Shown: positions 3,382 through 50,669 of the stretch, piece after piece
How the letters are laid out: each line of letters begins with the position of its first letter
Numbering within the stretch: the first letter of the stretch is position 1
Source of the DNA: a virus
Direction: 5' to 3' (one strand)
Length of the DNA: 50,669 nucleotides
IMG/VR virus record: IMGVR_UViG_3300021976_000022
Location: 1 to 50,669 of that record
Notes under the pieces: model-generated
What the model was told of the DNA's origin: nothing
The model's database searches: none
The model's input: the letters and a program-made list of their open reading frames with translations, nothing else
Program-made: the position numbers and the translations under genes

Positions 3382-4206
3382 ATGGAGAAGATCCTCTTCC
3401 TGTCGCCCCGCCTCAGCGATCTGGCGACACTGACGGCATCGAGCGAAGTCGGCTCGCTGCCGGCGACGTTCGTGAAAAATCCCGAGCCGACCAAGGTGTG
3501 GCGGACCACGGGATGCGCCGCCGAGTCCCTCGTCATCGACTTCGGCGCCGCCGCGGTCGTGGACACCGCCGCCATCGTCGCCCACAACGCCACCGCCGCC
3601 GGCACGGTCCGGCTGCGCCTCGCGGCGACGGTGCCGGGCCTCACGGCCGCGCCGTCGGTCGACAGCGGCGTCGTCTCGCTGTGGCCGTCCAGCGGCAAGC
3701 ACGCCGATCCCGACTGGCCGCATGAGCTTTCGCTCGCGCGGGCCGTCAACGGCATGGCGTATCGCTACGCCCGGCTCGATTTCGCCGACCCCGCCAACCC
3801 GGCCGGCTATCTCGAGTTCGGACGCATCGCGGCCGGACGGGCGTGGCAGCCCGCCATGAACATCGACCTCGACCCGGCCCTCGGCTTCGTGCCGCTCGAT
3901 GTGCAGGAGCCGAACGCCTACGGGCAGACCTTCACCGACCCGCGTCCGTGGGCGCAGCGCCAGTTCGATCTCTCGTTCAGCGCCGCCAACCAGGACGACG
4001 TGCACGACTACGCCATGGAGCTCAGCCGGCTTCGCGGGCAGGCCGGCGACGTCATCGTGTGCCTCGATCCCTCGGCGACGACACGCTTTCACCGCTGGTC
4101 GATGCAGGCGCTGTTCACCGGCCGCGCCGTCTTCAAGGCGCAGCCGCTGTGGGATGGCGCCGACCAGACCTGGGGCTTCTCCGCCTCCCTGATCGAAAAG
4201 CTCTGA
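3382..4206 (+). CDS. Tail protein, beta-sandwich type
   Basis: 274 residues. The ATG at 3382 follows the previous stop by 5 bases; the same frame is open further upstream, but there it lies inside the preceding gene. The early part (WRTTGCAAESLVIDFG, then alternating hydrophobic strands with IVAHNATAAG) resembles discoidin/F5-8-like or galactose-binding jelly-roll domains in phage tail proteins. The second half contains a PRPWAQRQFDLSF segment and an HRWSMQALF strand. Likely a minor tail or adsorption-apparatus component. The carbohydrate-binding idea is inference from strand pattern. Confidence 0.55.
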   Translation: MEKILFLSPRLSDLATLTASSEVGSLPATFVKNPEPTKVWRTTGCAAESLVIDFGAAAVVDTAAIVAHNATAAGTVRLRLAATVPGLTAAPSVDSGVVSLWPSSGKHADPDWPHELSLARAVNGMAYRYARLDFADPANPAGYLEFGRIAAGRAWQPAMNIDLDPALGFVPLDVQEPNAYGQTFTDPRPWAQRQFDLSFSAANQDDVHDYAMELSRLRGQAGDVIVCLDPSATTRFHRWSMQALFTGRAVFKAQPLWDGADQTWGFSASLIEKL

Positions 4207-4213
4207 GGTCACC

Positions 4214-5761
4214 ATGTTTTCAGACGGCGTCATCGAGTCCTCGTCGACCACGGGGACCGGCACCTACACGCTGACCGGAGCCGTGTTCAGCGGGCTCTCG
4301 TTCGCGCAGGGATTTCCCGGCGGCGGCGACGTGGTCTATCAGGTCCAGACGGCGGACAAGGCGAAATGGGAGATGGTCAAGGGGGTTCTGACCATCGGCC
4401 CGCCGCGCACGCTGACCCGCGCCACGATCCTGAAGTCGAGCAACGCCGGTTCGGCGATCGACTGGCAGAGCACTGACGTCAAATACGTGTTCTCGATCGC
4501 CTCGGCCGACGCCGAGGCCGGCTTGCTGGCGGGCAATCTCGCGACGTTGCGGCCGTGGTGGGTGCGCCAGGGCGGCCGTTGGTGGGACCGCACGCCCGGC
4601 CTCGCCGTCTCCTGGCTCGACAATCTGTACAACGGCAGCGCCGACATCCGCACCGGCCTCTACGATGCCGTGAAGGCGCTCTACTTCCCCGACAATCGCC
4701 GCACCTCGACGGCCGTCGGCGCGGCCAACAAGGTGTTCGCCGCGGCCGACGTCGGCGGCTCCTTCACCTTCAGCACCTCAGGCGGCGCGCGCACGGCGAC
4801 CCTGCCGGCGAGCGCCACGGCGAAGGACGGCTATGCCCTCGAGATGAAGGGCCTCGGCGACGCCAACGGCATCGTTCTCACGCCAGACGCCGGCGACGGC
4901 ATCGACGGCGGCGCCGATGGCGTGACGAAGACGATCGCGGGCGGCATCCTGTTCACAGTCCGGTGGAATGCGGCGGCCGATATGTGGCTGACCAGCTACA
5001 ATGTGCCGGCCGTCCAGGTGGTTCGCTCCTATCTCGCCGGGCTCACGCTCTCGGCGGCGGGCAGCACCGCGACTTTCGGGATTGCGGCTGGCGTGGCGGC
5101 GGACAGCACCAACACGGACATGATGGCGCTGGCGTCGGCCTACACCAAGACGGCGAGCGCGTGGGTGGTCGGCTCCGGCAACGGCGCGCTCGATACCGGC
5201 GCGATCGCCAACAACACCTGGTATCACGTCTGGCTGATCAAGCGCGTCGACACCAACGTGGTCGATGTTTTGCTCTCGACATCGGCGACGGCACCGACGA
5301 TGCCGGCCAGCTACACGCTGAAGCGGCGAGTCGGCTCGATGAAGACCGATGGCTCTGCGCAATGGATAGGGTTCATTCAGGACGGTGACTATTTCCGATG
5401 GGTGAATTCGATCCTGGACGTTGACGTCACCAACCCGGGCAATTTCGCGGTGACGCGCGGGCTTACCGTGGCGCGCGGCATCTCCGTGATGGCTGTGCTC
5501 AATCTGATGAACCTGCAGAACACGAATCCGTTCGCGACCTATCTCAGCGATCTGGCGGCGGCAGATGAGGCGCCGAGCCCCACCGCCGCTCCGTTGGTGA
5601 GCCTGTATCCGGGCAGCGGCACACAGCTGGGCGGAACGCAAATCATGGTGCGCACCAACACCTCTGCGCAAATCCGCACGCGCTGCAGCAATGCCGGCGC
5701 CGAGGATGCCATTCGCATCGCCACACTGGGCTGGATCGACCGCCGCGGCCGGGACGACTGA
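4214..5761 (+). CDS. Tail fibre-like protein
   Basis: 515 residues, starting 7 bases after the previous stop. The N-terminal ~100 residues (TGTGTYTLTGAVFSG near the start, then GGDVVYQVQTADKAKWE and TLTRATIL) follow the common phage tail-fibre base module seen again in the next gene. The body is Ala/Gly/Thr/Ser-rich with repetitive beta pattern and ends with a compact Cys-containing segment. The N-terminus probably docks on the tail tip while the rest projects outward. It ends just before a strong intrinsic terminator, so it may close one late transcription unit. Confidence 0.65.
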   Translation: MFSDGVIESSSTTGTGTYTLTGAVFSGLSFAQGFPGGGDVVYQVQTADKAKWEMVKGVLTIGPPRTLTRATILKSSNAGSAIDWQSTDVKYVFSIASADAEAGLLAGNLATLRPWWVRQGGRWWDRTPGLAVSWLDNLYNGSADIRTGLYDAVKALYFPDNRRTSTAVGAANKVFAAADVGGSFTFSTSGGARTATLPASATAKDGYALEMKGLGDANGIVLTPDAGDGIDGGADGVTKTIAGGILFTVRWNAAADMWLTSYNVPAVQVVRSYLAGLTLSAAGSTATFGIAAGVAADSTNTDMMALASAYTKTASAWVVGSGNGALDTGAIANNTWYHVWLIKRVDTNVVDVLLSTSATAPTMPASYTLKRRVGSMKTDGSAQWIGFIQDGDYFRWVNSILDVDVTNPGNFAVTRGLTVARGISVMAVLNLMNLQNTNPFATYLSDLAAADEAPSPTAAPLVSLYPGSGTQLGGTQIMVRTNTSAQIRTRCSNAGAEDAIRIATLGWIDRRGRDD

Positions 5762-6982: not shown

Positions 6983-8751
6983 TGACGCGATGGCTCGCCC
7001 TCTTCTTGCTGCTCCTCGCCGGCGGCGCGCAGGCGCAAGACAACCTCTTCTCACCAACGGCGACCGCGAGCGAGATTCAGTTCGTGCAGAACGGCGCGGC
7101 CTTGATCCCCGACTTGTCGGTTCTGATCGGCACTCGGATCATGGGGTGGGCCGTGCCGCCATGTCCCGGCTGCGGCAGCAGCTTCTACATTCCCTGCTGC
7201 CGCGACCCGCTGTCAAAAACCAGTCCGGCGATCAGCTCGATCAGCTGGTCGAACGGCACCGTGACCGTCGTCACGGCGACGGCGCACGGCCTGACCACGG
7301 GTCGCGTGGCCAGCGTCATCGGGAGTGTCCCGCCCGCCTACAACGGCACGTTTACGGCGACGGTAATAAACACCACGACATTCACCTATCCGCTCCCCGA
7401 CAACCCGGGCGCGAACACAACCCCGGGGGTGACCAGCATTGCCACGGCAGCCAACCCGCACGACCTGAAATGGTTTTACGATCATCAGCCTGATTGGCTG
7501 GTCTATGCCGGCACCGCGATCAGCTCGATCAGCTGGTCGGACGGCACCGTGACCGTCGTCACGGCGACGGCGCACGGCCTGACCACGGCAATGGTGATCG
7601 GCATCAGTGGCAACGCCCCGGACGGCTTCAACGGCACGTTTACGGCGACGGTAATAAACACCACGACATTCACCTATCCGCTCCCCGACAACCCGGGCGT
7701 GAGCACGGTGCTCGGGCTTGCAGCCAAGGGCACGGCGAGCACAGGCGGCTCGGGCAATCTGGAAGGCATCGACATCGGCAACGAAGCCGTGCGCGAGTAC
7801 ATGCTGCAATACGTCAAAGACCCGACGCGGGTCGGCGGCTTGAGCACGCCGGGCGTGAGGGGCGTGCTTAACGGTTTCCAGTACGTAGGGGTCGACAACA
7901 TCGCCACGTCCAACGGCAACAACATCGTCGGCCGCTACGCTGGCGCCGTGCCGGGCTGCCCCTCGGGGCGGCCGGCTTGCGGCGGGACATGGACGCCCAG
8001 ATACAGCGGCAACGATGACGACCCGGCGTGGTCGGCCGAAATGATCTCGTGGGCGCTGTATCTCCGCGCCCATCTGCATGCGATCGGCGTCCGAACCTGG
8101 CTCAACGCAAAGTTGATCAAATACGACATCTCAGAGAGCGTCGAGCTTTGCATGGCCGGCGATGCTTGCCTGCGCGAGTCGATGTTCCTCCGCGCGTGCA
8201 CGGCGGGAACCACCAACACGGAGTTTGTCGAGGGATTGACGAGCACCGAGGATTGGTACGCGGCATTGAAATATGCCGGGCGCCTCTGGGATAAGCAGAA
8301 CGTCCAGATCTTCAACTATCTCTGCCGGCGATCGGCAGCCGAAGCGCAGCCGCCTGAAATCCTCTACGCGCTCGCGAACTATTATCTCGTGCGGGGAGAA
8401 TACACCTACTTTGAAATGCAGAACGGGACGGGGGTCGGGACCCGCGATGCCGGCGTGTACGTTCCATACCCGGCGCCCTTCCACGTCTCGCTCGGCACAT
8501 GGCTCGAGCCGCCACCGACGGCCGGCGAGCCCAACTCCGGCGGCGGCTGCTACCAGCGCCGCTTTCAATACGGAATGGTTGTCGTGTGGCCCTCCGCGAC
8601 GGGCTCGTGCACCTTCACCGTGCCGAGCGACGGCTTCGCCTACAAAGACCCGTTCGGTACTGCCGTCTCGGCGGGCGTCAAGACACTCGCGTCCGACAAC
8701 AGCGTCACGCCCCCGCGCGGCAGCGCCGTCGTGCTCTACCGGGACCCATGA
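6982..8751 (+). CDS. Exported glycoside-hydrolase-like protein with duplicated beta domain
   Basis: 589 residues. The ATG at 6982 gives a clear Sec signal peptide (MTRWLALFLLLLAGGAQAQ, likely cleavage after AQA); the open frame further upstream overlaps the fibre gene. Two copies of a ~60-residue beta module (ISSISW ... TVTVVTATAHGL ... FTATVINTTTFTYPLPDNPG) lie near residues 83-143 and 179-239. The C-terminal ~340 residues look like a TIM-barrel glycosidase-like fold: a VGVDNI strand end near residue 300, a TWLNAK strand, a TEFVEG acidic strand end, and a YTYFEMQNG strand. This suggests an exported surface-polysaccharide depolymerase or host-surface modifier. The catalytic acids are guesses. 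Confidence 0.55.
   Translation: MTRWLALFLLLLAGGAQAQDNLFSPTATASEIQFVQNGAALIPDLSVLIGTRIMGWAVPPCPGCGSSFYIPCCRDPLSKTSPAISSISWSNGTVTVVTATAHGLTTGRVASVIGSVPPAYNGTFTATVINTTTFTYPLPDNPGANTTPGVTSIATAANPHDLKWFYDHQPDWLVYAGTAISSISWSDGTVTVVTATAHGLTTAMVIGISGNAPDGFNGTFTATVINTTTFTYPLPDNPGVSTVLGLAAKGTASTGGSGNLEGIDIGNEAVREYMLQYVKDPTRVGGLSTPGVRGVLNGFQYVGVDNIATSNGNNIVGRYAGAVPGCPSGRPACGGTWTPRYSGNDDDPAWSAEMISWALYLRAHLHAIGVRTWLNAKLIKYDISESVELCMAGDACLRESMFLRACTAGTTNTEFVEGLTSTEDWYAALKYAGRLWDKQNVQIFNYLCRRSAAEAQPPEILYALANYYLVRGEYTYFEMQNGTGVGTRDAGVYVPYPAPFHVSLGTWLEPPPTAGEPNSGGGCYQRRFQYGMVVVWPSATGSCTFTVPSDGFAYKDPFGTAVSAGVKTLASDNSVTPPRGSAVVLYRDP
7228..7411 (+). repeat. Direct repeat copy 1 (184 bp) in the glycosidase-like gene
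   Basis: First copy of an in-frame 184-bp repeat whose partner is 288 bp downstream with no indels. The first ~70 and last ~70 bases match the second copy almost base for base, while the central ~45 bases are clearly diverged. It encodes the AHGL-containing beta module. Confidence 0.9.
7516..7699 (+). repeat. Direct repeat copy 2 (184 bp) in the glycosidase-like gene
   Basis: Second copy of the 184-bp repeat, offset by exactly 288 bp (96 codons) from the first. The two copies are separated by a 104-bp linker encoding an Asp/Trp/Tyr-containing segment. Confidence 0.9.
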
Positions 8752-33449: not shown

Positions 33450-34502
33450 ATGGCCAGGAACAAAATCCGCCGCGTCGATTTCTGGCCTGACGAGTTTCTG
33501 GCCGGCGTGAGCAATCTCGATTACGCCGAGGTCGGGCCTTATTGGATCGCGTGCTGCCTCATGTACTCGCGCGGCGGGCCGATCGACGATGACGACAAGT
33601 TCATCGCCAAGGCCATCGGCTGCCACTGGCGGACGTGGCGGACGATCAAGCTGCGGCTGCTCGCGCTGGGCAAGCTGCATCTCAGTGACGGCAAACTGAC
33701 CAACGCGCGCGCGATGGCTGAAATGGGAAAGGCGAGCGGCCGGGTCGATGACGCGCACGCGGCCGCAGCGCAATCGGTGCGCGCAAGAGCCGAGCGGCGT
33801 GCAGCGAAGTCGACCCCGTCAGGAACGGTTCAGGATGCGGTCAGGAACGGTTCAGGATCGGTTCAGGATGGCGTCACAATCGATTCACAATCGGTTCAGG
33901 ATGGACCACAACCCAACGATTACAATGAGATACCCGAAGCGCCGGCTTCATCGCGCGCTCGAGCTAACCACCAACCACCAACCACCAACCAGAAGAAAGA
34001 GATAACCAAGACCTCGTTCTGTGGTGAGGTGTCGCGCGAGGCAACCCCGTTGAACCCGCCACCGCCACGCCCCTCGAACGCGAGCGTGCTTCCGGAAGGA
34101 TGGGAGCCAAAGCCCGATCTCGCGTCGTGGGCGGAGACCAAGCTCGCAGACGAAGCGCCCGGCCTGTCGGTCGGTGGGGAGGTCGAGAGGTTCAGAAATC
34201 ACTATCGCGGCAAAGCCGGCCGGACGACCAGCAACGACTGGTCAGCGACGTTCAAGAATTGGATTGGCGATTCGATCAGCAGGAGCAAGACCAATGGCCA
34301 ACGACCTCACCACGACTACCAGAAGCCCAGCGGCAAACTTGGCGCCGGCGCAGAGCGCTACATCCTGGCTGAGTACGCGCGCAGCGGCGGACCTGAGAGC
34401 GCCGACGAACAGCGACGGTCTGCCAAGCCCATCGTCGTGGGTTCCGCCTCTCTGGCCGATGACGCGCCAGCAACTGAGAAACGCAATCGAAAAGCTCGAT
34501 GA
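33450..34502 (+). CDS. DUF1376-type replication initiation-like protein
   Basis: 350 residues; ATG at 33450. Residues ~7-60 (RVDFWPDEFLAGVSNLDYAEVGPYWIACCLMYSRGGPI) carry the DUF1376 (YdaU-type) signature found in phage replication proteins. A low-complexity part (residues ~120-155) is encoded by an array of 11-bp repeats. After a Pro-rich linker, DLASWAETKLADEAP and GKAGRTTSNDWSATFKNWI make the second conserved part. By family and location it is probably the initiator that binds these repeats, as lambda O does. Confidence 0.75.
   Translation: MARNKIRRVDFWPDEFLAGVSNLDYAEVGPYWIACCLMYSRGGPIDDDDKFIAKAIGCHWRTWRTIKLRLLALGKLHLSDGKLTNARAMAEMGKASGRVDDAHAAAAQSVRARAERRAAKSTPSGTVQDAVRNGSGSVQDGVTIDSQSVQDGPQPNDYNEIPEAPASSRARANHQPPTTNQKKEITKTSFCGEVSREATPLNPPPPRPSNASVLPEGWEPKPDLASWAETKLADEAPGLSVGGEVERFRNHYRGKAGRTTSNDWSATFKNWIGDSISRSKTNGQRPHHDYQKPSGKLGAGAERYILAEYARSGGPESADEQRRSAKPIVVGSASLADDAPATEKRNRKAR
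33815..33902 (+). repeat. In-gene iteron array (8 x 11 bp), candidate replication origin
   Basis: Eight consecutive 11-bp units in perfect register, beginning at 33815, 33826, 33837, 33848, 33859, 33870, 33881 and 33892. Four are exactly CGGTTCAGGAT (33826, 33848, 33859, 33892); the others keep most of the TCA core and flanks. They lie inside the DUF1376-type gene, where they encode a repeated 11-residue SGSVQDG-type motif. In-gene iterons in an initiator gene are the hallmark of lambda-type origins. Confidence 0.8.
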
Positions 34503-41939: not shown

Positions 41940-42250
41940 GACGCACCCGCCTTCGTCTTCGCGGCGGCGTCGATGGCGGCGTTGTATTTTTCGAGGTTCT
42001 TTTTCGTGAGCCTCACGACCAGCCACGGCGGCCCGCTGAAGCTCACCGGCTTTCTTTTCGAGAGCGTGAGGTAGCCCAGGTCGACAAGCCGCTTGATCGC
42101 GTTCTGTGTCGGCTTGCCGGGGTTCGGCAGGAAATCCTTAATTCCGAAACGGGTCTGCGACTGCAGCGCGCCCTGGATCACGCCCCACTCGATCTTCGAC
42201 AGACCGAGCGGATGCACGAACTTCGTCGGGCGCTTCGGGCGCGTCACCAT
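41936..42250 (-). CDS. Winged-helix-like protein
   Basis: 104 residues. LGLSKIEWGVIQGALQSQTRFGIKDFLPNPGKPTQNAIKRLVDLGYLTLSKRKPVSFSGPPWLVVRLTKKNLEKYNAAI follows the helix, helix, recognition-helix, wing plan of MarR/winged-helix proteins. N- and C-termini basic. Likely a small regulator. Start supplied by GGAGGCTTAGCC. Confidence 0.65.
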   Translation of the reverse strand: MVTRPKRPTKFVHPLGLSKIEWGVIQGALQSQTRFGIKDFLPNPGKPTQNAIKRLVDLGYLTLSKRKPVSFSGPPWLVVRLTKKNLEKYNAAIDAAAKTKAGAS

Positions 42251-42252
42251 GG

Positions 42253-42483
42253 CTAAGCCTCCTCACGCAGCGCGAGACGCGTCTCGGTTCGCGCCATCCG
42301 CTCGTCGAGGTTGGCGACGTCTTTGCGCACCGCGAGAAGGTGCTCGTTGGTCGCTACCGAATGTTGCTTGAGCGCCTGGATCTCGCGGATCACGCGGTCA
42401 AGCTTGATGCCCATCGCGCGCTGATCGTCGAGCATCCGGTGCATCAACGTGCCGAGCATCTCAAGGGTCACAACGTCGGCCAT
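42253..42483 (-). CDS. Small coiled-coil protein, tandem paralogue
   Basis: 76 residues: MADVVTLEMLGTLMHRMLDDQRAMG, then a long coiled coil (VIREIQALKQHSVATNEHLLAVRKDVANLDERMARTETRL). The first 22 residues match the next gene upstream (MTDVVTLDMLGEMMRRSLDEHR) at most positions. Function unknown; two small parallel coiled coils might form a heteromer. Confidence 0.65.
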   Translation of the reverse strand: MADVVTLEMLGTLMHRMLDDQRAMGIKLDRVIREIQALKQHSVATNEHLLAVRKDVANLDERMARTETRLALREEA

Positions 42484-42486
42484 GGC

Positions 42487-42714
42487 TCAACCCTCACGCA
42501 GTTCGAGGCGGCGCTCGATGCGCTCGACCCGTTCGCTCAAATTGTCGATCCGGCCGTCGGCGCCGGCCGCCGTGCCGAGGCTTAGCAGCAGGTGCTGTTC
42601 CATGATGCCGAGCCGGCGCTTGATCTCGCGCACGTCTTCGCGCGTGAGGCGGTGCTCGTCGAGCGACCGGCGCATCATCTCGCCGAGCATGTCCAGGGTC
42701 ACAACGTCGGTCAT
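42487..42714 (-). CDS. Small coiled-coil protein, tandem paralogue
   Basis: 75 residues: VVTLDMLGEMMRRSLDEHRLTREDVREIKRRLGIMEQHLLLSL then GRIDNLSERVERIERRLEL. Start in GACCTATG. Head-to-tail duplicate of the next gene (same length and layout); the two share the first ~22 residues and a coiled-coil end. Three bases separate them. Confidence 0.65.
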   Translation of the reverse strand: MTDVVTLDMLGEMMRRSLDEHRLTREDVREIKRRLGIMEQHLLLSLGTAAGADGRIDNLSERVERIERRLELREG

Positions 42715-42744
42715 AGGTCTTTTTCCTTTGCGGTTAATCGGATA

Positions 42745-43590
42745 TTACGCCAGCCGGGAAAGCATTTCCAGCAGCGGCGCGGACGATGTTGACTTGATGG
42801 CGCGGGCCTTTTTCGGAGCCAGCGCTGGCCGCAGCATCACCATCGCGACGTTGACGCCGGTGCCCTCGGCCTTGAACGAGTCGGCGGCCAGCGTTTCCCA
42901 GCTGCCGGCGTGCTCGGCGACGAACTGCCGTTGCCTCGTGCCGGCCGCGCAGAGGGCGACCAGCACGCCATCGGGTTTCAGGAAACTTAGCGCGTGGCGA
43001 ATGTGGGCGAGGTCCGCGCCCTTCGCGAAAGGCGGGTTCATCAGCACGCGGTCGAACATGAACGCGGGCGCGGGTTCCAACTCGAGGAAGTCGCCGACCA
43101 CGAATGACGGCGAGCGCCGTCGAGTTGCGCTCAGGAACTCGGCGCACGCCGCGTCCATTGCGTGGCTGTCGATATCGACGCCGAGCACGTCGGCCTCATC
43201 GTCGAGCGACAGGACTTCGCCGATCGCCCGAATGAGTCGGCCGTCGCCGCACGACGGCTCGAGGATGCGCAGGCCGGCGCGCAGGTCGGCCTCCATCACC
43301 ATGCGCCGCGCGATCTCGGGCGGCGTGTAGAAGCGGCCGTGAAGTTTCTTCTCGTCCGTCGCGGTGCCGTCGTCGATCGACTGGCCGAGCAGCGGTCGAG
43401 GGTCGCGGGCGAAGACGTGGCCGCCGCTCTTGCGGTTCCACTTCCCGCCGAGCGCCTTCAGCACCTTGTCGACCCGTTCGTAGAAATTGCGCGGCAGCTG
43501 GCCGGGCGGCAGCGTCGCGGTCAGGCCGTCCACCTTCATGGCGCGCAGGATGGCGAGAACGTCGGCATCGATTTTCATGGTCGCGGTCAT
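42745..43590 (-). CDS. DNA adenine-specific methyltransferase-like protein
   Basis: 281 residues; ATG at 43590 with AAGGGAAATCGACC upstream. Motif I is LEPSCGDGRL (residues 110-119), motif IV MNPPF (184-188), as in N6-adenine methyltransferases. The first ~90 residues (IDADVLAILRAMKVDG; ERVDKVLKALGGKWNRKSGGHVF) form an extra N-terminal domain, and the target-recognition region would lie around 195-250. Likely modifies phage or host DNA to protect it or set gene timing. The N-terminal GGKWNRKSGGHVF region is also seen in phage and plasmid methylases. Confidence 0.85.
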   Translation of the reverse strand: MTATMKIDADVLAILRAMKVDGLTATLPPGQLPRNFYERVDKVLKALGGKWNRKSGGHVFARDPRPLLGQSIDDGTATDEKKLHGRFYTPPEIARRMVMEADLRAGLRILEPSCGDGRLIRAIGEVLSLDDEADVLGVDIDSHAMDAACAEFLSATRRRSPSFVVGDFLELEPAPAFMFDRVLMNPPFAKGADLAHIRHALSFLKPDGVLVALCAAGTRQRQFVAEHAGSWETLAADSFKAEGTGVNVAMVMLRPALAPKKARAIKSTSSAPLLEMLSRLA

Positions 43591-43611
43591 CGGTCGATTT
43601 CCCTTGCTGGC

Positions 43612-43842
43612 TCAGCGATGAAGCGTGTAGCCGCGAACGGACATGCAGCGGATGGCGAAGTCTGCCATTGCAAAATGACTTTCGAATCGGGCGGTCCGCG
43701 TCTCGCGCTCGCATTCGTATTCGTCCTTCTGCTGCTGGTCGAACGTCGCGCCCTCTTTCGCGAACCACGGATAACGGGCGGGCTCGCAGCCAGCGACGGC
43801 CAAGGCGATGACGATGGCCAGCAGGTTTCGGATCATGTTCAT
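43612..43842 (-). CDS. Small lipoprotein in the early block
   Basis: 76 residues; ATG at 43842 overlaps the previous stop (ATGA). MIRNLLAIVIALAVAGC gives a lipobox (VAGC, Cys19). The mature part is charged and polar (EPARYPWFAKEGATFDQQQKDEYECERETR). A membrane-anchored early protein, perhaps a superinfection or host-modifying factor. Confidence 0.65.
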   Translation of the reverse strand: MNMIRNLLAIVIALAVAGCEPARYPWFAKEGATFDQQQKDEYECERETRTARFESHFAMADFAIRCMSVRGYTLHR

Positions 43843-44147
43843 GACGTGCTCCCATCGTCGATCAAGCGCGGCTGATCCAGCGCGCCCTCCGACAGGACGC
43901 GCCAGTTGAACGACGCCCAGCGAGCGACGTTCGGCTGCCAATTCATATTGACGTTGTCCGTGCACAGGACGGCGCGGCGAGTGCTGCCGACGTAGCCGTC
44001 GCCAATGGCGGCCGAGTCGTCCTGCGAGTCGGGGTAGCATTGATCGTACCGGAGCATGTCGATCGGGAATTGCCCGCGCCCCTCGACCACGAACTTGATC
44101 GAATAGAGTTTGGTCGACGGCTTTTGAACGCGCGTGAGAATTGTCAT
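43839..44147 (-). CDS. Small hypothetical protein
   Basis: 102 residues; start in GACCTATG after AAAAGGAACC. VQKPSTKLYSIKFVVEGRGQFPIDMLRYDQCYPDSQDD, GYVGSTRRAVLCTDNVNMNWQPNVARWASFNWRVLSEG: beta-rich, Trp-containing, Gly-rich turns. No family recognised. Confidence 0.6.
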   Translation of the reverse strand: MTILTRVQKPSTKLYSIKFVVEGRGQFPIDMLRYDQCYPDSQDDSAAIGDGYVGSTRRAVLCTDNVNMNWQPNVARWASFNWRVLSEGALDQPRLIDDGSTS

Positions 44148-44174
44148 AGGTCGGTTCCTTTTGGGGTTGGTCGG

Positions 44175-45098
44175 CTAGAGCAGCTGGCCCGCGAGGTCGC
44201 GCGACAGCTGATGGAAGTGGGGCGGGTACTCGTGCAGCACCTGCCCATCGAGAGTCGCGCCGCCCTTCTCGCCATCGACGGCGAGATACGGTTTCGGCTT
44301 CGGCCCTTTGGTCGTGCGCTCGACGATCTCGGCTTTCTTCTCGCCGCGATTGATCGCGTGTCGCACTCGTTCGATGTGCAGCGGGGAATTGCTCTCCCGA
44401 TACAGCGGATTGTTCGACCACTTGCCGAATTGCTTGAACCAGACCGCGGCGCCGGCCTGGCGTGCGAGGTCGCGCGAGGTCCGCGCCCAGGCCACGTCCA
44501 TGTCGCGCGCCTTCGGTCCGCTCTCGCCGCCGATCAGGACTTGGTCGATCGCCGTGTAGTCGTGACGGTCGGGCGAGCCGAGCAGGGGCTCGACCGAGAG
44601 GAACGCGGTGAAGGGACCGACCGAGTCTTTCAGGCCGCGCAGCTGGTCGACGCGACCCCGGACTCGATTGTCCTCGACCGAGACGCCGAGCCAAATGTGG
44701 GCCGGCACGCCGCTCGCCTTGTAGCGCTCCTCGACGATGCGCCGCAGCGTCATCGGCCGCTTCGTGAGGAGCTGGAAGATCGTCTTCGGGTTGGCCTCCA
44801 TCGCGTCGAGGCAGCGATGCTTGAAGGCGTCCGTGATCTGCTCGTGCATCAAGTCGGACATGCTGTTGACGAATACGCGGCGCGGCACGAGGCGGCCATC
44901 GACGCGCAACGGCGTGAACAGCTGCGACGCCTGCGACAGTCGCTTCTCGTGCTCGACGACCTTCGAGAAGTCGGCACCCCAGCGATGCACGAGCGCTTCG
45001 GCGTAGCAGTTGTCACACCCGCTGCTGACCTTCGTGCAGCCGGTTGTCGGGTTCCAGGTCGAGTCGGTCCACGAGATCGGGGTCTTCATGACGGCCAT
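44175..45098 (-). CDS. Phage Gp37/Gp68-like (DUF5131) protein
   Basis: 307 residues; ATG at 45098 with AGGAG upstream. The TDSTWNPTTGCTKVSSGCDNCYAE motif (residues ~9-32) and NSMSDLMHEQI, FQLLTKRP, WLGVSVED, SVEPLLG, IGGESGPKARDMDVAW identify the DUF5131/Gp37-Gp68 family. Its C-x6-C-x2-C cluster resembles radical-SAM-type cluster loops. Such proteins occur in many phages and mobile elements; their reaction is not established to my knowledge. C-terminal extension contains Lys/Arg-rich segments. Confidence 0.85.
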   Translation of the reverse strand: MAVMKTPISWTDSTWNPTTGCTKVSSGCDNCYAEALVHRWGADFSKVVEHEKRLSQASQLFTPLRVDGRLVPRRVFVNSMSDLMHEQITDAFKHRCLDAMEANPKTIFQLLTKRPMTLRRIVEERYKASGVPAHIWLGVSVEDNRVRGRVDQLRGLKDSVGPFTAFLSVEPLLGSPDRHDYTAIDQVLIGGESGPKARDMDVAWARTSRDLARQAGAAVWFKQFGKWSNNPLYRESNSPLHIERVRHAINRGEKKAEIVERTTKGPKPKPYLAVDGEKGGATLDGQVLHEYPPHFHQLSRDLAGQLL

Positions 45099-45186
45099 TG
45101 GAGGCTCCTGTTGCTTAATGCTGATTTGATTGAGGGGGAGAGGGGTCGAGGAGGGCGACACGGCCACCGCCGCGCCGCCCGCTCGG

Positions 45187-45621
45187 TCAGCTTTCGTACG
45201 CCAACATGATGGTCAGCACCGGCTCGCCGTCGTCACCGCGCGCCGCGCGCAGCACGATCCAGCTTTGGCTGGCATCGGTCGTCGCCATGAAGCGCATCGT
45301 GGTCGTGTCGAAAGGCTTCGGGTTCGCCCGCGTGAGCTCACCCGCCACCTTCCAGGTGCACGACAGCAACTGACGGATGCGGGTCGCATACGTCTCGCCG
45401 CTCTCGCGCTCCTTCTTCGGGTCGATGCCCCTCGACACGAGCGTCGCATAGACGCCCTTCGTGCAGGCGATCGGCCACGTCCAGTAGTGCGGGACCGCGA
45501 CATAGCTGAGGTCGATCAGCCAGCCATCCTTGATCTGGCCCTTCCGCGTCGTCGCGAGGGCGGCGGCCGCACCATTGGCAGCGGCAGCATGGGGCTTGTG
45601 TTCCAGAGTAACGTTCGCCAT
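45187..45621 (-). CDS. Hypothetical protein following a leader minigene
   Basis: 144 residues if begun at the ATG 45621 (AGGAG six bases upstream); the ATG at 45627 overlaps the minigene stop. Ala-rich start, then KDGWLIDLSYVAVPHYWTWPIACTKGVYATLVSRGIDPKKERESGETYATRIRQLLSCTWKVAGEL and a SWIVLRAARGDDGEPVLTIMLAY end. No family recognised. Confidence 0.6.
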   Translation of the reverse strand: MANVTLEHKPHAAAANGAAAALATTRKGQIKDGWLIDLSYVAVPHYWTWPIACTKGVYATLVSRGIDPKKERESGETYATRIRQLLSCTWKVAGELTRANPKPFDTTTMRFMATTDASQSWIVLRAARGDDGEPVLTIMLAYES

Positions 45622-45623
45622 CT

Positions 45624-45644
45624 TCATCTCCTGTTGGTTTTCAT
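45624..45644 (-). CDS. Six-residue leader minigene (MKTNRR)
   Basis: The ATG at 45644 occurs in the usual GACCTATG context, and after six codons the TGA stop overlaps the ATG at 45627 (ATGA). No ribosome site is seen before the minigene, while AGGAG for the next gene lies inside it. Could couple or regulate translation of the 144-residue protein, or be the remains of an older start. Confidence 0.4.
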   Translation of the reverse strand: MKTNRR

Positions 45645-45662
45645 AGGTCGACAGATCAACTC

Positions 45663-45696
45663 GGGGCGCTTCGGGACTTACCTCCCGCAGCGCCCC
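45663..45696 (-). promoter_or_regulatory. Two-tier intergenic hairpin after the clamp gene
   Basis: Outer stem GGGGCGCT (45663-45670) with AGCGCCCC (45689-45696); inner GGGA with TCCC. It starts 7 bases after the clamp gene's stop on the minus strand. No T-run follows. Different sequence from the 47-kb hairpin family but a similar place. Confidence 0.7.
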
Positions 45697-45703
45697 ACAT
45701 ATT

Positions 45704-46849
45704 TCAGCCCTTCGCCTTCTTCGCCTTCGGGGCCTTCGCGGCCTGCGCGCTGCTGCCGTTCTTCGCCTTCGCGTCGACCAGCTGCGAGAGTGTCGGCTTC
45801 TCGACCGGTCCCTTGCCGAGTGCGTCCGCCACGTTCAGCGGCGGCGGAGGCGGCGGCGGGGGCTTCGGCGCATCGAGCGCCTTGGCCACCGTGCCGGTGC
45901 CGGCGCGCTCGACCAGCGCCGCCATCTTGGCCTTGAACTCGTCCGCCTTCGCGAGCGCGGCGACCTTCGCGGGTCCGGTCAGCTTGCCGGCCGCGACGCG
46001 GTTGCGCGTCTCGTGGGCCTTCAGTGCCGCCAGGCTCGACTTGATCGCCGGCGCCAGGATGGCGCGGTCAGCCTCATTCATCGGCGCCACGCCGTTGTGC
46101 GGCATGACGATCATGGCCACGCCGATGCCGCCGAACGTGAACATCGTCGGCGACTTCAGGCGCTCGACCTTCGCCGGCTTGCCGTCCTTCGCCGGGGTCT
46201 CGATCACGCGGTCCGGCATGGCGTAGGCCGAGACGGCTTCGCTGCCGAGCTTCGCCGCGACCTCGCCGACCGTTTTCAGGAAAGACGGATTGAAGGCGGT
46301 CGGCTTGAACTCGCCGACGTCGCCGTCATCGAACGTGCCGCCGAAGCTGCCGACAAGCCGCTCGTAGTCGGGGAACGTGCCGTCGACCGGCTGGTCGCGA
46401 AAGACGGAGGCCCGCGAGTGATCGCTGATCTCGAGATGCTTCGCGCCCTTGGCGAACGCGATGGTGACCACGGCCTGCCCCTTCTCGGCGCCTTGCGTCT
46501 TCTCGATCAGCGAGAGCCGGGCGGCCAGCTGGTCGGCGCAGATGATGACGCCGAGCGAGAGCCAGGCCGGACCGGGCTGGTCGGCGGCTTCGCGATAGAG
46601 GTTCGCCATCAGCAGGCGGTGCCCATCGGTCGACACCGCGCGGACGAAACCGTTCGCCGTGCGATGCAGATAGACGCCGTTCAGATAGGGGCACGTCTCC
46701 TCGTTGACGGTGCACAGGAGCGCGGCCCGCAGGCTCGCGATTTTGAGCGTGACCGTCTCCAGCTTGGCGACGGTCTCGACGCTGATTGACGTTCCCGGCT
46801 TGTCGGGCGCGGGCGTGGTCGTGGCTGGCTTGATCACTTCGGGTTCCAT
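45704..46849 (-). CDS. DnaN-like sliding clamp (apparently two clamp domains plus low-complexity tail)
   Basis: 381 residues. NGVYLHRTANGFVRAVSTDGHRLL (residues ~57-80) and FPDYERLV (159-166) are hallmarks of the middle domain of bacterial beta clamps; AFNPSFLKTVGEVAAKLGS and IGVAMIVMPHNG (about 242-253) correspond to the last domain, with the V-M-P ending. The N-terminal ~30 residues are Pro/Thr-rich and too short for domain one. After residue 253 comes a ~130-residue Ala/Lys/Pro-rich tail with an eight-Pro run. A two-domain clamp would be expected to form trimers, like T4 gp45. Start in GACCTATG. Confidence 0.7.
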   Translation of the reverse strand: MEPEVIKPATTTPAPDKPGTSISVETVAKLETVTLKIASLRAALLCTVNEETCPYLNGVYLHRTANGFVRAVSTDGHRLLMANLYREAADQPGPAWLSLGVIICADQLAARLSLIEKTQGAEKGQAVVTIAFAKGAKHLEISDHSRASVFRDQPVDGTFPDYERLVGSFGGTFDDGDVGEFKPTAFNPSFLKTVGEVAAKLGSEAVSAYAMPDRVIETPAKDGKPAKVERLKSPTMFTFGGIGVAMIVMPHNGVAPMNEADRAILAPAIKSSLAALKAHETRNRVAAGKLTGPAKVAALAKADEFKAKMAALVERAGTGTVAKALDAPKPPPPPPPPLNVADALGKGPVEKPTLSQLVDAKAKNGSSAQAAKAPKAKKAKG

Positions 46850-46872
46850 AGGTCGATTTCCTTTTGCGTTGT

Positions 46873-46923
46873 GAAGCGAAGGCGCTTCCCAAGTCCGGCG
46901 CGACGTGCGCCGGCAAGGGGAAG
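46873..46923 (-). promoter_or_regulatory. Structured intergenic element, copy 1 (before the clamp gene)
   Basis: Plus-strand coordinates: CTTCCC (46885-46890) pairs with GGGGAAG (46917-46923); inner CCGGCGC (46895-46901) with GCGCCGG (46907-46913) around GACGT. A second short stem GAAGCG / CGCTTC (46873-46888) shares bases with the outer stem. Transcribed leftward, it lies right after the stop of the DUF6011-type gene and 24 bases upstream of the clamp start. Confidence 0.8.
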
Positions 46924-46932
46924 GGCTCGCGG

Positions 46933-47559
46933 TCAGAAGCCGAATTTTTCTGCGCAGATCGGACCGATGCCGCGCGCTACGCTGGCCTTGGTCGTGAGCG
47001 GCAGGCCGCAGCAGGCGCACCGGCCGGTCATGTGGCCGTGAACCTTGGCCGAGCTGGCAGGATCCGCCGCGAGCCGCGCGATCTCGGCCGAGTGCTCGGG
47101 CGTGCAGTCGCGCGAGGGAGCGAAGCGGCCGTCGACCACCTTGCCGAGATAGGCGTTTTCGGCGGCCGGCTTGTTCGTCTTCACATACACCGCGCCCGCA
47201 TTGATGCTGGTTGGCGCGGCGAGACTGAAGCGGAAGTCGCCGAGGCGAAGGCAGGGAGATTTCAAGCCGCGGTCCCGCGCGGTCTGTAGGGCCGTGACGA
47301 TCTTCGCCACGTCGACCACGACCGAGGCGGCGCGCGGTGCCGCGTTGCGAAGGACGGCGGCCAGCTGCCGCTCGCTCAGGCTGCCGTAGCGCAGGACCGA
47401 GGCGCGCAGGCTCGCGGCGAAATCGTTCTCGGGGTTGGCGGCGATCCAGCCGGCCGCGATCGGCTGGCGCTGGGCGAACGTGTCCCAGGTCGTGGGCGGC
47501 TGCGCGAACAGGCCGGCCGGCGTCGGGCCGCGATGGCGGCGGGTCGAGAGATTTTTCAT
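46933..47559 (-). CDS. DUF6011-like zinc-domain protein
   Basis: 208 residues; ATG at 47559 in an AAAAGGAAATCGACCTATG context. The C-terminus (GRCACCGLPLTTKASVARGIGPICAEKFG, about 179-207) is the DUF6011 zinc motif: C-x2-C ... S-x-x-R-G-I-G-P-x-C. The rest is helical (FDTFAQRQPI-type segments, LRASVLRYGSLSERQLAAVLRN, VVDVAKIVTALQTARDRG) and beta-like (SPCLRLGDFRFSLAAP). Common in actinobacterial and proteobacterial phages; function unknown. Confidence 0.8.
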   Translation of the reverse strand: MKNLSTRRHRGPTPAGLFAQPPTTWDTFAQRQPIAAGWIAANPENDFAASLRASVLRYGSLSERQLAAVLRNAAPRAASVVVDVAKIVTALQTARDRGLKSPCLRLGDFRFSLAAPTSINAGAVYVKTNKPAAENAYLGKVVDGRFAPSRDCTPEHSAEIARLAADPASSAKVHGHMTGRCACCGLPLTTKASVARGIGPICAEKFGF

Positions 47560-47582
47560 AGGTCGATTTCCTTTTCTGGTTC

Positions 47583-47636
47583 GCAGCTTCGAGGGCGCTG
47601 CCCGAGTCCGACCCGACGTGCGGGCCGGCAAGGGGC
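47583..47636 (-). promoter_or_regulatory. Structured intergenic element, copy 2
   Basis: Outer GCCC with GGGGC, inner CCG-A-CCCG (47608-47615) with CGGG-C-CGG (47621-47628) containing one A/C mismatch, and a short GCAGC / GCTGC stem (47583-47587 with 47597-47601). Lies between the 62-residue gene's stop and the start of the DUF6011-like gene. Confidence 0.75.
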
Positions 47637-47644
47637 GGGGTCCT

Positions 47645-47833
47645 CTACTCGCCCAGGCCGCAGATCACGTTGACGGACACCCGCAGCTTGTCGACGGGCG
47701 AGCCGTCCACATCCTTGAAGCTGCCAGTGGTGGCGACCAGCCGGGTCTTGCCCGACTTCGACAGCGGGTAGTGCGCGCCCTTCGCAACGGGGATGCGAAT
47801 GACGATTTCGTTCTTCTCAAACTTGATGTTCAC
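47645..47833 (-). CDS. Small hypothetical protein, GTG start
   Basis: 62 residues; GTG at 47833 in the same leader context where neighbours have ATG (GACCTGTG). FEKNEIVIRIPVAKGAHYPLSKSGKTRLVATTGSFKDVDGSPVDKLRVSVNVI: beta-rich, with a S-K-S-G-K-T-R-L-V-A turn common in small phage proteins. Function unknown. Confidence 0.65.
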   Translation of the reverse strand: MNIKFEKNEIVIRIPVAKGAHYPLSKSGKTRLVATTGSFKDVDGSPVDKLRVSVNVICGLGE

Positions 47834-47854
47834 AGGTCGATCCTTTCGAGGTTC

Positions 47855-47904
47855 GAAGCGGGGTCGCTTCCCAAGTCGCCCGCCGTGGCGGGCGCAAGGG
47901 GAAG
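47855..47904 (-). promoter_or_regulatory. Structured intergenic element, copy 3
   Basis: Outer CTTCCC (47867-47872) with GGGGAAG (47898-47904); inner CGCCCGC / GCGGGCG around a short CGTG loop; second stem GAAGC / GCTTC (47855-47859 with 47866-47870). Between the stop of the next gene upstream and the start of the 62-residue gene. Confidence 0.8.
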
Positions 47905-47911
47905 GGGCCTC

Positions 47912-48205
47912 TCAGGTCAGATCACGGTCGGCCAGTGCGGCCAGCATCTCGGACCAGTCGTCCGTCTCGACGAGTTCGGCACCCTGCTCGCCAGCCTCAT
48001 TCAGCGGGTACAGCGTGAACCGCTTGCCGCCCGGAAACTCACGGGCCGCGTCGTTCGCGTAGTCGACGAACAGGCGATAGCCCTGCGCGTGTTCGAAACT
48101 CGGGCTGGTGTCGTTGTGCCACGAGATGTCGACGAATGTTTCGGGGATCGCCGGCATGTCGGCCTCGGGGAAGTCGGGAAACGCGATCTTGAACTGGCGG
48201 GTCAT
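47912..48205 (-). CDS. Small hypothetical protein
   Basis: 97 residues; ATG at 48205 after AAAGGAAAAAGTCC. FKIAFPDFPEADMPAIPETFVDISWHNDTSPSFEHAQGYRLFVDYANDAAREFPGGKRFTLYPLNEAG: beta-rich and acidic; no family recognised. Upstream leader also carries a copy of the structured element. Confidence 0.65.
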   Translation of the reverse strand: MTRQFKIAFPDFPEADMPAIPETFVDISWHNDTSPSFEHAQGYRLFVDYANDAAREFPGGKRFTLYPLNEAGEQGAELVETDDWSEMLAALADRDLT

Positions 48206-48244
48206 AGGACTTTTTCCTTTGCGGGTTTTCTGCAGTCGCAGGCA

Positions 48245-48282
48245 CTTCCCAAATCCGGCCCCGAGGGGCCGGCAGGGGGAAG
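48245..48282 (-). promoter_or_regulatory. Structured intergenic element, copy 4
   Basis: Outer CTTCCC (48245-48250) with GGGGGAAG (48275-48282); inner CCGGCCC with GGGCCGG around CGAG. The second short stem is weak here. Right after the stop of the 73-residue gene, upstream of the 97-residue gene. Confidence 0.75.
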
Positions 48283-48285
48283 CGT

Positions 48286-48507
48286 CTACTTGCTGACCGT
48301 CTTCGCCTTGGGGGCCGCCTTGCGGCCGTTTGCGACAATCCGCTTCGAGGCGGACTTCGCGGCGCGGCGCGACTTCCACGCCAGCTTGCCGCGAGCGACA
48401 TAGTCGCTCTGGATTTCGAGGGCCGCCTCGTAGGCCTTCCGGATGGGGTTGGAGGCCGGCAGCTTCGCGACGAGGGCCAGAACCGGGGTCATTGCGTTGG
48501 TGGTCAT
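48286..48507 (-). CDS. Small basic protein
   Basis: 73 residues; ATG at 48507 (GACCTATG). Helical start (LALVAKLPASNPIRKAYEAALEI) and a basic, Lys/Arg/Ser/Ala-rich end (KSRRAAKSASKRIVANGRKAAPKAKTV). Resembles small nucleoid-associated-like proteins but lacks their core motifs. First gene of the leftward block. Confidence 0.6.
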   Translation of the reverse strand: MTTNAMTPVLALVAKLPASNPIRKAYEAALEIQSDYVARGKLAWKSRRAAKSASKRIVANGRKAAPKAKTVSK

Positions 48508-48901
48508 AGGTCTATTCCTTCTAGTTGTTTCGACTGGGCTTTTGCCCGCGCCGATTGCGTAAGAGGAAGATAGGCTTTCCGGAGAGATAATCTAGTCAAT
48601 TCAGCATTAAATTGACATTGGGATGCGCTTTTTTTGCCGGTCAGGTAAACCATTCTAAGCATTGAGCAATTCGGCTTTTCGCGAAAATCGGCCGGAAATC
48701 GGCCCCCGGATCGGAAGTCGGGAAACCCGGGGAGATCGCCGGTAACCCGGTTTTTAGCCCCGTGGGACGCCTCGGCGCGGCCATGGTGGATCATGAGGGG
48801 GCGGCCCGAGGAACCCCCGTAGGCCCCGTTTATGGGCACCCATTTTTCGGCACAAATCGGCAGGCGTTTGGTCGCTATTCGCTTGCCAGAAGGACGGAAC
48901 G
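48508..48901. promoter_or_regulatory. 394-base divergent region before the terminase, with inverted repeat
   Basis: Between divergent genes. AT-rich part at about 48570-48670. GTCAATT (48595-48601) and AATTGAC (48610-48616) with an 8-base spacer form a perfect inverted repeat. A minus-strand TTGACT and a plus-strand TTGACA overlap its arms, but no convincing -10 with proper spacing is present. GGTAAAC (near 48648) repeats a word of the switch region. Right part is G/C-rich (GGCCCGAGGAACCCCCG), possibly with the packaging cos/pac site. A 111-residue minus-strand frame here has no ribosome site and looks spurious. Confidence 0.5.
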
Positions 48902-49348
48902 ATGAAGGGCCGCAAGCCCCTGCCGACGCACCTGAAGCTATTGGAAGGCAACCCCGGAAAACGGGCGATCAATCGACGTGAGCCGAAGCCGCAAGGCGAC
49001 CTGTTCGAGCCGCCCGGCGACTTGCCTGCGGCCGCGCTGCCGTTCTGGACGCAGGCCATCGCGGCGGCGCCGGCCGGATTGCTGAAACACATCGACCTCC
49101 GCGTCCTGGCCGTCTGGTCGATCGCGGCATGGCTCCACAGCGACGCGGCTCGCCAAGTCGCCACGAGCGCCACGGTCGTGCTCACGAAGTCGGGCGAGAT
49201 GATGCAACACCCCTCGCTCTCGATCCTGAACAAGCAAGCGGCCATCATGCTGAAGGCCGCCGCCGAGATGGGCTTCACGCCGTCGAGCCGCACGCGCGTG
49301 GCGCTCGACGGCGGCGAGGGCAGCACCAACCCGTTCGACGATTTCTAG
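48902..49348 (+). CDS. terS: Terminase small subunit, P27-like
   Basis: 148 residues. MKGRKPLPTHLKLLEGNPGKRAINRREPKP is the classical start of P27-family (phage terminase small subunit) proteins. The rest (FWTQAIAAAPAGLLKHIDLRVLAVWSIAAWLHSDAA; MMQHPSLSILNKQAAIMLKAAAEMGFTPSSRTRVAL) fits the family. Recognises the packaging site and recruits the large subunit. Its stop is followed within one base by the terL GTG. Confidence 0.92.
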   Translation: MKGRKPLPTHLKLLEGNPGKRAINRREPKPQGDLFEPPGDLPAAALPFWTQAIAAAPAGLLKHIDLRVLAVWSIAAWLHSDAARQVATSATVVLTKSGEMMQHPSLSILNKQAAIMLKAAAEMGFTPSSRTRVALDGGEGSTNPFDDF

Positions 49349-49349
49349 C

Positions 49350-50669
49350 GTGGATCGCGACTACGTCGGCATCGCCAAAAAATACTGCGCCGACGTTCTG
49401 AGCGGGCGCGAGCCTGCGTGCAAATGGGTCAAGCTCGCGTGCAAGCGCCAGCGCCGCGACCTCGCGCGCCAGCGCACGCGCGGCTGGGGATATCGCTTCG
49501 ACGCCGAGGCCGCGTCGCGGCCGTGCCGGTTCCTCGAGCTGCTGCCGCACATCAAGGGGCCGCTCGCGCGCGCCCACGAGCTGCTGCGCCTGGAGCCGTG
49601 GCAAATCTTCATCGTCACCACCGGCTACGGCTGGCTCTACAAGTCGGGCAAGCTGAAGGACAAGCGGCGCTTCCGCTCGATCTATCTCGAGGTCCCGCGC
49701 GGCAACGGCAAGTCGGCGCTGCTGTCGGGCCTGTCGCTCTACGCCCTGGCCGCCGATCACGAGGCCGGCGCCGAGGTCTACAGCGCGGCCGTCACGCGCG
49801 ATCAGGCGAAGATCGTCTTCGGCGGCGCGGCCAAGATGGCGCAGAAGCTGCCGGCGCTGCGCCAGTCGCGCGGCATCAACGTGCTCACCAACGCGATCAC
49901 GCAGGAACGAACGGCCAGCACGTTCAAGCCGCTGGCCTCGGACGAGGATTCGCTCGACGGCCTCAACGTCCACTTCGTCGCGATCGACGAGCTGCACGCG
50001 CACAAGACGCGCGCGGTCTACGACGTGGTCGAGACCGGCATGGGCAAGCGCGACCAGCCGATGCTCGTGGTCATCACGACGGCCGGCAGCAACCGCGCCG
50101 GCATCTGCTACGAAGTGCGCGGCTACATCCTGAAGCTGCTCGACGGCGTGGCCACCGACGAGACCGCCTTCGGCATCATCTACACGGTCGACGAGGGCGA
50201 CGACTGGACCGCCGAGGCGAGCTGGCGGAAGGCCAACCCGAATTGGGACGTCTCGGTCGACCCGCTGCACATCGCGCGGCTGGCGACGAAGGCGATGCAG
50301 CTGCCGAGCGCGCAGCCGACGTTTCTGACCAAGCACCTCGATCTCTGGGTCAACGCCGACGTTGCCTGGATGGACATGCGCGTATGGGAGCGCTGCACCG
50401 ATCCGGAAATGAAGATCGAGGATTTCGAGGGCGAGTATTGCCAGATCGGACTCGACCTCGCGAGCAAGGTCGACATCGCCGCCAAGATGCGACTCTTCGA
50501 GCGCGAGATCGACGGCGTCACGCACTACTACTTTTTCGGGACCTACTATCTGCCGAGCCAGGCGATCGAGGATGGCCGCAACGCGCAATACCACGGCTGG
50601 CGCGAGCTGGGCCTGCTCACCGAGACCGAGGGCGACGTGATCGACTTCGGCAGGATCGAGGACGACGTG
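49350..50669 (+). CDS. terL: Terminase large subunit (3' truncated by the window edge)
   Basis: 440 residues visible. GTG at 49350 directly after the terS stop, so translation is likely coupled. EVPRGNGKSALL (residues 114-125) is Walker A; FVAIDELHAHKT (209-220) carries Walker B and the following conserved helix; VITTAG (241-246) is the coupling motif. QIGLDLASKVDIAA (365-378) gives the first acidic residues of the nuclease domain. ATPase and nuclease packaging motor of HK97-type phages; end missing. Confidence 0.95.
   Translation, partial: MDRDYVGIAKKYCADVLSGREPACKWVKLACKRQRRDLARQRTRGWGYRFDAEAASRPCRFLELLPHIKGPLARAHELLRLEPWQIFIVTTGYGWLYKSGKLKDKRRFRSIYLEVPRGNGKSALLSGLSLYALAADHEAGAEVYSAAVTRDQAKIVFGGAAKMAQKLPALRQSRGINVLTNAITQERTASTFKPLASDEDSLDGLNVHFVAIDELHAHKTRAVYDVVETGMGKRDQPMLVVITTAGSNRAGICYEVRGYILKLLDGVATDETAFGIIYTVDEGDDWTAEASWRKANPNWDVSVDPLHIARLATKAMQLPSAQPTFLTKHLDLWVNADVAWMDMRVWERCTDPEMKIEDFEGEYCQIGLDLASKVDIAAKMRLFEREIDGVTHYYFFGTYYLPSQAIEDGRNAQYHGWRELGLLTETEGDVIDFGRIEDDV

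Follow-up and report, generated by a model that had tools for sequence, protein, structure and literature searches.

Structured elements between phage genes are easily written off as spacer. A leftward operon in a 50,669-base contig from an uncultivated virus (GC 66%; this whole stretch is called the window here) carries hairpins of one design in four of its gaps, which raises the question of what these hairpins do and whether other phages have them too.

Four gaps of one operon each hold a two-tier hairpin

The operon begins at 48507, and a rightward small/large terminase pair begins at 48902. All four of the intergenic two-tier hairpins originally predicted were located between 48285 and 46850 on the minus strand, which is the transcript strand, one in each of the gaps at 48285-48206, 47911-47834, 47644-47560 and 46932-46850. 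Read along that strand, each gap runs from a stop codon through the two-tier hairpin and a short linker with a possible second stem to the Shine-Dalgarno sequence AAAGGA and a start motif. In the order of transcription, the genes, hairpins (c1 to c4) and start motifs are as follows, with covariance-model scores given in bits.

48286..48507, minus strand: operon gene 1, 73-aa strongly basic protein, pI 11.2, 16 K/R versus 3 D/E, no family
48245..48282, minus strand: hairpin c1, CTTCCC-CCTG-[CCGGCCC CTCG GGGCCGG]-ATTT-GGGAAG; 65 bits, z −4.45
48203..48220, minus strand: start motif downstream of c1, AAAGGAAAAAGTCCTATG
47912..48205, minus strand: 97-aa gene between c1 and c2, no family
47867..47904, minus strand: hairpin c2, CTTCCC-CTTG-[CGCCCGC CACG GCGGGCG]-ACTT-GGGAAG; 64 bits
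47830..47840, minus strand: start motif downstream of c2, TCGACCTGTGA
47645..47833, minus strand: 62-aa gene between c2 and c3, no family
47598..47638, minus strand: hairpin c3, outer stem CCGCCC/GGGCAG, inner stem CCGGCCCG/CGGGUCGG with one G-U; 59 bits
47557..47574, minus strand: start motif downstream of c3, AAAGGAAATCGACCTATG
46933..47559, minus strand: DUF6011-domain protein, 208 aa, between c3 and c4 (PF19474, 53.8 bits)
46885..46923, minus strand: hairpin c4, upstream of the DnaN-like clamp gene, CTTCCC-CTTG-[CCGGCGC ACGTC GCGCCGG]-ACTT-GGGAAG; 70 bits
46847..46864, minus strand: start motif downstream of c4, AAAGGAAATCGACCTATG
45704..46849, minus strand: DnaN-like DNA sliding clamp, 381 aa, after c4; Pfam domain just below the cut-off, PHROG annotation DNA polymerase processivity factor

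The shared design is an outer stem (CUUCCC/GGGAAG), a 4×4 internal loop (CYUG/AYUY) and an inner GC stem that differs between copies, giving a helix of 13-14 bp plus the loop. The outer stem was present in three copies, as had been predicted, and is altered in c3 to CCGCCC/GGGCAG by one compensatory U-A to G-C pair and one C-A mismatch; in c1 it is extended to CG/UG. Two copies share the internal loop CUUG/ACUU, with CUUG/ACUC found in c3 and CCUG/AUUU in c1, and the apical loops of the four copies are CUCG, CACG, CACGU and ACGUC. The inner stems differ (CCGGCCC in c1, CGCCCGC in c2, CCGGCCCG in c3 and CCGGCGC in c4) and are paired in all four copies, in agreement with the original prediction. 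The single mismatch that it reported there did not stand, since the A-C on the plus strand is a G-U in the transcript.

Further genes of the operon encode a DUF6573-like protein and a DUF5131 protein. The first six gaps of the operon measure 80, 78, 85, 83, 82 and 88 nt and each has a hairpin, unlike most of the genome, which is tightly packed according to a crude gene call. The hairpins of the fifth and sixth gaps are two-tier structures unrelated to c1 to c4.

45662..45697, minus strand: fifth gap, after the clamp gene, GGGGCGCT-G-CGGGA..TCCCG-A-AGCGCCCC; z −5.2
45147..45185, minus strand: sixth gap, CGAG..GGGCGGCGCGGC/GCCGTGTCGCCC..CTCG; z −2.2

The window has 11 same-strand gaps that are 60-120 nt long; five of them had a folding z-score below −2, and all five are among the operon's first six gaps (P 0.013).

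Elsewhere, the window holds a direct repeat of 191 nt (7228-7418 and 7516-7706, 88% identical, 288 nt apart), and positions 33819-33884, within a long stretch where no gene was called with confidence, contain tandem 11-nt repeats, TCAGGAACGGT/TCAGGATCGGT.

Both tiers of the hairpin covary

We counted pairs in a hand-checked alignment of the four copies (11 pairs, 44 cells). Pairing was kept in 97.7% of the cells, and four pairs had changed on both sides, which was reached in 2 of 500 shuffles; when the alignment register was slid, pairing fell to 30-55%. The outer tier contributed the compensatory pair and the mismatch of c3, and the inner tier three pairs flipped in c2 relative to c4, together with the G-U in c3. 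Covariation in both tiers supports the earlier claim of selection on RNA structure. Coming from four sequences, with few independent changes behind it, it is good but not deep evidence.

Folding energies of the full gaps gave z-scores of −4.5, −3.1, −0.8 and −2.8 for c1 to c4, so c3 is unexceptional by energy alone. The best 60-nt windows at the copies ranked in the top 0.3-3.5% of the strand. A covariance model built on the four copies scored them at 59-70 bits and nothing else in the 50.7-kb record above 24 bits; the runners-up were the reverse strands of the four palindromes.

The operon strand contained no terminator-like site (a GC hairpin followed by a U-run), which bears out the view that these are not ordinary terminators. 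No Rfam 15 covariance model matched the window or 11 related loci at the gathering threshold, and the sub-threshold matches were at chance level only. The statement that the element belongs to no named family therefore holds for these sequences, and a limited literature search found no description of the hairpin families of the window or its relatives.

A switch based on the second stem is not supported

In three copies a second stem overlaps the 3′ arm of the outer stem, as had been noted from the sequence; it is absent from c1.

47855..47870, minus strand: second stem of c2, GAAGCG/CGCTTC; P 0.17 (chance level)
47583..47601, minus strand: second stem of c3, GCAGC/GCTGC; P 0.23 (chance level)
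46873..46888, minus strand: second stem of c4, GAAGCG/CGCTTC; P 0.08

Helices of that length arose in 17% (c2), 23% (c3) and 8% (c4) of shuffled downstream segments. In computed equilibria the outer stem prevailed over the second stem with a pair probability of 0.78-0.99, and the predicted accessibility of the Shine-Dalgarno sequence shifted by at most 0.08 when the hairpin was forbidden or a ribosome footprint was placed on the stop codon. The second stems themselves were thus confirmed, but the alternative folds proposed from them were not: they are at chance level, minor at equilibrium and hardly change predicted Shine-Dalgarno access.

These results bear directly on an alternative-fold switch, in which the outer 3′ arm would flip to the second stem, for example when a ribosome occupies the upstream stop codon, and so couple the translation of neighboring genes. 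The overlap recurs in c2, c3 and c4 and in two hairpin families of other phages described below (the L018/L068 and L069-type families), and the single base change in c3 is matched by both alternative partners. We nevertheless consider a switch very improbable, given second stems at chance in the window (P 0.08-0.80), a dominant outer stem, a copy that lacks the second stem and nearly equal Shine-Dalgarno access in all states. We retain it as a weak lead because the c3 change fits both partners and the other families also allow an overlapping stem to be drawn.

The start-associated motif and comparison with mycobacteriophage repeats

The start-associated motif, AAAGGAnnnGACCTATG, occurs at 12 sites in the window versus 1.06 expected. 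The sites span 24445-48522 and lie at many gene starts (e.g., 30255, 42712, 44145, 45641 and 48505), both with and without an upstream hairpin. In the four hairpin gaps, the motif that follows the Shine-Dalgarno sequence ends in GACCTATG or a near variant. A scan with the start motif found no relatives.

Such an arrangement is known from the start-associated sequences (SAS) and ESAS of Cluster K mycobacteriophages. ESAS are inverted repeats of 17 bp. Their sequence changes give no support for pairing in RNA (PMC3203893), and SigA-like promoter hexamers (−35/−10) lie within them (PMC3203893, PMC11373665). As in the window, a start motif is found at many starts, an inverted repeat lies upstream of a subset of them, and the gaps of the nonstructural region are unusually long. 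The motifs are unrelated in sequence, that of the mycobacteriophages being the 13-nt GGGATAGGAGCCC.

The window's repeats could likewise act in DNA, as operators or promoters of the kind proposed for ESAS. The shared layout, an inverted repeat just upstream of a repeated start motif in gaps of >50 nt (PMC3203893), and the excess of start motifs in the window favor this reading. It is nonetheless unlikely. The compensatory changes and the G-U favor pairing in RNA, whereas ESAS departures do not (PMC3203893), and in place of the SigA-like hexamers of ESAS a scan for sigma-70-like promoters in 42000-49000 found none, with the reservation that alphaproteobacterial promoters may escape such a scan.

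The window's element was not found in other genomes

The covariance model of the window's element found no copies in 160 related loci. Exact-pattern matches in 15 viral stretches lacked both a paired insert and a gap context. Among those in 95 genome stretches, 75 of the 80 that were re-read had inserts with 0-2 nested pairs, as expected by chance. Searching phages with blastn for gap 4 gave no match, and the DUF6011 and 97-aa proteins led to no relatives in viral contigs. Alignment of the clamp against genome contigs confirmed no relative; in 385 genomes from the same class as a Methylobacterium genome, clamp matches were weak only and lay mostly in frames of 370-450 aa, like chromosomal DnaN. 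A scan with the true, plus-strand terminase yielded 80 loci, in which neither the element nor any gene of the operon was found. The minus-strand open reading frame at 49275-50594 is antisense to this terminase, and loci found through it were therefore left out.

The nearest relatives found were L018 and L019/L068, two contigs of one metagenome. Their clamps are 47% and 46% identical to that of the window, respectively, their DUF6011 proteins 33-34%, and the L018 terminase 69%. The window's element is absent from both, and no homologue of the 73-aa protein was found in them or in the other loci.

Other phages place unrelated hairpins in the same kind of gap

In these two relatives, the region between the DUF6011 gene region and the clamp gene contains a different, 59-nt element (L018:4237-4295 and L068:7769-7827). 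The two copies are identical at 57 of 59 positions, lie in differing flanks and follow two different upstream genes. The element has an outer stem CGCAU/AUGCG, an inner GC stem with a GCGA loop and an overlapping second stem. The start motif of L018/L068 is AAGGACCTACC (also given as AAGGACCTACCnATG). In the same gap, the next hairpin keeps its stem despite a different sequence.

The 59-nt element also bears on the idea that such hairpins have no function and are dispersed repeats, or recombination boundaries, that were copied into gaps. Near-identical copies after different genes would suit that idea, as would the confinement of the window's paralogous copies to one genome. However, the stems remain paired through two-sided changes and every copy has a fixed place between stop and start, which makes the idea highly improbable.

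Nine other clamp-bearing contigs (L069, L071-L076, L088 and L100) carry two further hairpin families, neither of which matched Rfam. Family A has the form GACGCAAGTCT-[variable stem]-TATGCGAGCGCCTTCGCTCG, with invariant parts GACGCAAGTCT / ATGCGAGCGCC around a perfectly covarying inner stem, and occurs before the clamp gene and elsewhere; covariance model R2 matched family A sites only. Family B has the form GCGCTAAGG-[variable stem, YACG loop]-CTCATAGCGC and occurs directly after stop codons, after the clamp gene and elsewhere.

Family A sites: L069:1970-2029, 2744-2798; L071:1254-1310; L072:3314-3368; L073:3771-3827; L074:2434-2493; L075:2371-2427; L076:2401-2455; L088:6106-6161; L100:1706-1765, 2425-2479
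Family B sites: L069:3460-3520; L071:2346-2406; L072:4065-4126; L073:4486-4546, 4724-4785; L074:3559-3619, 3797-3858; L075:3439-3499; L076:3126-3186; L088:7182-7242, 7421-7480; L100:3174-3235

In each family, pairing was complete (100%) in 11 copies, three pairs had changed on both sides and the surroundings were nearly invariant; because the sequences are related, shuffle tests overstate their independence. In the one copy of family B tested, an overlapping downstream stem was unlikely by chance (P 0.01).

The gap that precedes the clamp gene in 16-3-type rhizobial phages holds hairpins with variable GC stems of 8-10 bp and a loop containing ACCA. They lie upstream of the clamp gene and in other gaps (L102 near 7522; L061, L048, L097, L143, L050, L060, L082, L027 and L036). 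Across the clamp loci, 21 distinct ACCA-loop hairpins were found on the clamp strand versus 3 on the other, a bias that fits a role in RNA. Hairpins are frequent in the gaps of these phages overall: a z-score below −2 was found in about 35% of other gaps, versus 9 of 10 strictly defined clamp gaps.

Comparable gaps in other lineages thus hold unrelated hairpins, frequently right ahead of a DnaN-like clamp gene. Covariance models of the other families missed the window copies (best 15.8 bits, E 0.6), and we therefore do not claim common ancestry. The searches, including the covariance-model search suggested earlier, revealed no other genome with the four-copy family, which goes halfway to refuting the original proposal by its own standard. 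Analogous, partly covarying gap hairpins nevertheless occur in relatives and other phage lineages, and the phenomenon is therefore more general, and less unique, than first proposed.

The hairpins probably mark cistron boundaries

Sites for RNase III in the early region of T7 are two-tier hairpins in operon gaps, usually of roughly two helical turns. The window's hairpins resemble them in having two tiers around an internal loop and in lying in operon gaps, and might be processed in the same way. We doubt this, since they seem to have fewer base pairs, 6 plus 7-8 bp around the 4×4 loop, and the analogous rhizobial-phage hairpins likewise have stems of 8-10 bp only.

Lambda N binds boxB, and phage translational repressors bind hairpins. 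Like these systems, the window has a leftward operon with short RNA hairpins and a small basic protein encoded first, although boxB has a small stem and a purine-rich pentaloop and lies near promoters, not in one copy per cistron. An RNA operator deserves weighing because sequence is conserved in the outer stem and internal loop rather than in the inner stem, as would be expected of a protein-bound RNA. Under this model, one trans-acting RNA-binding protein of the phage or its host would bind the outer stem and the CYUG/AYUY loop and control several cistrons together. In all four copies the outer part and internal loop are conserved while the inner stem varies, family A of the L069-type contigs repeats that pattern, and the hairpins are limited to one operon of the record. 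The gene 1 product, judging by its composition and pI of 11.2, is a candidate nucleic-acid-binding protein and thus a candidate binder. It is a candidate only, however, with no homologue found in L018/L068 or the other loci, and conservation among four copies of one genome may reflect just recent duplication. We regard an RNA operator as a possible but distinctly less probable reading.

Intercistronic CUUCGG hairpins of T4 are described as common in the gaps of many phages (Tuerk et al. 1988, as described in PMC8948821), and an mRNA-stabilizing role is reported at gene 32 (PMC8948821). The window's hairpins are similar in that several very stable copies lie in gaps, a core is conserved although the stems are variable, and no U-run is needed. 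The T4 class is marked by several, mainly intergenic copies; the window has four, all in gaps of one operon and none elsewhere. The two differ in that a stem of 2-8 pairs carries the apical loop CUUCGG in the T4 hairpins, while the window conserves the outer stem and internal loop and has its copies in a single operon.

The tetraloop UUCG belongs to the wider YNMG class, into which the window loops CUCG and CACG also fall.

We favor, with a probability of roughly one half, the reading that the four elements are mRNA hairpins at cistron boundaries, of the same kind as the T4 CUUCGG hairpins but with lineage-specific sequences, that would serve stability or insulation. It is favored because both tiers covary and the inner stem has a G-U on the transcript strand; because the first six gaps of the operon, at 78-88 nt, all have hairpins; because analogous gap hairpins occur in L018/L068, the L069-type contigs and the rhizobial phages; because two copies have C-G-closed YNMG-type loops, like the YACG of family B; because the hairpin hardly changes the predicted Shine-Dalgarno accessibility; and because the T4 hairpins are a documented precedent (PMC8948821).

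Cistron-boundary hairpins would all lie on one polycistronic mRNA, each between a stop codon and the next Shine-Dalgarno sequence. There, a stable structural block may protect or delimit segments of the mRNA, for example against 3′-5′ decay, and would keep neighboring cistrons apart without blocking the ribosome site. The four would be paralogous copies in one phage, with other lineages using unrelated hairpins in such gaps. We infer transcription as a single mRNA, a role in stability or insulation, and early timing. Against the cistron-boundary reading, the outer stem and internal loop are kept as sequence, which a purely structural barrier does not need; this could be explained by recent duplication and equally by a binding protein. 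In addition, c3 is weak by energy (z −0.8) and the covariation comes from four copies only. The hairpin set is real, but it is probably an ordinary gene-boundary element.

Implications

What is new here is a set of hairpins in one operon that is supported by covariation; repeated intercistronic hairpins in phages were as such already known. Unrelated hairpin families recur in the same type of gap, often before the sliding-clamp gene, including in rhizobial phages of the 16-3 type, which can be grown. A bolder and rather doubtful extension is that several phage lineages each carry their own multicopy intercistronic RNA operators, through which a lineage-specific RNA-binding factor coordinates the cistrons of the replication operon, the clamp and its neighbors. 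If true, this would amount to a posttranscriptional regulon whose RNA code has been replaced wholesale between lineages while its positions were kept. These observations raise a testable question: do lineage-specific RNA hairpins set the decay or translation of each cistron of the replication operon?
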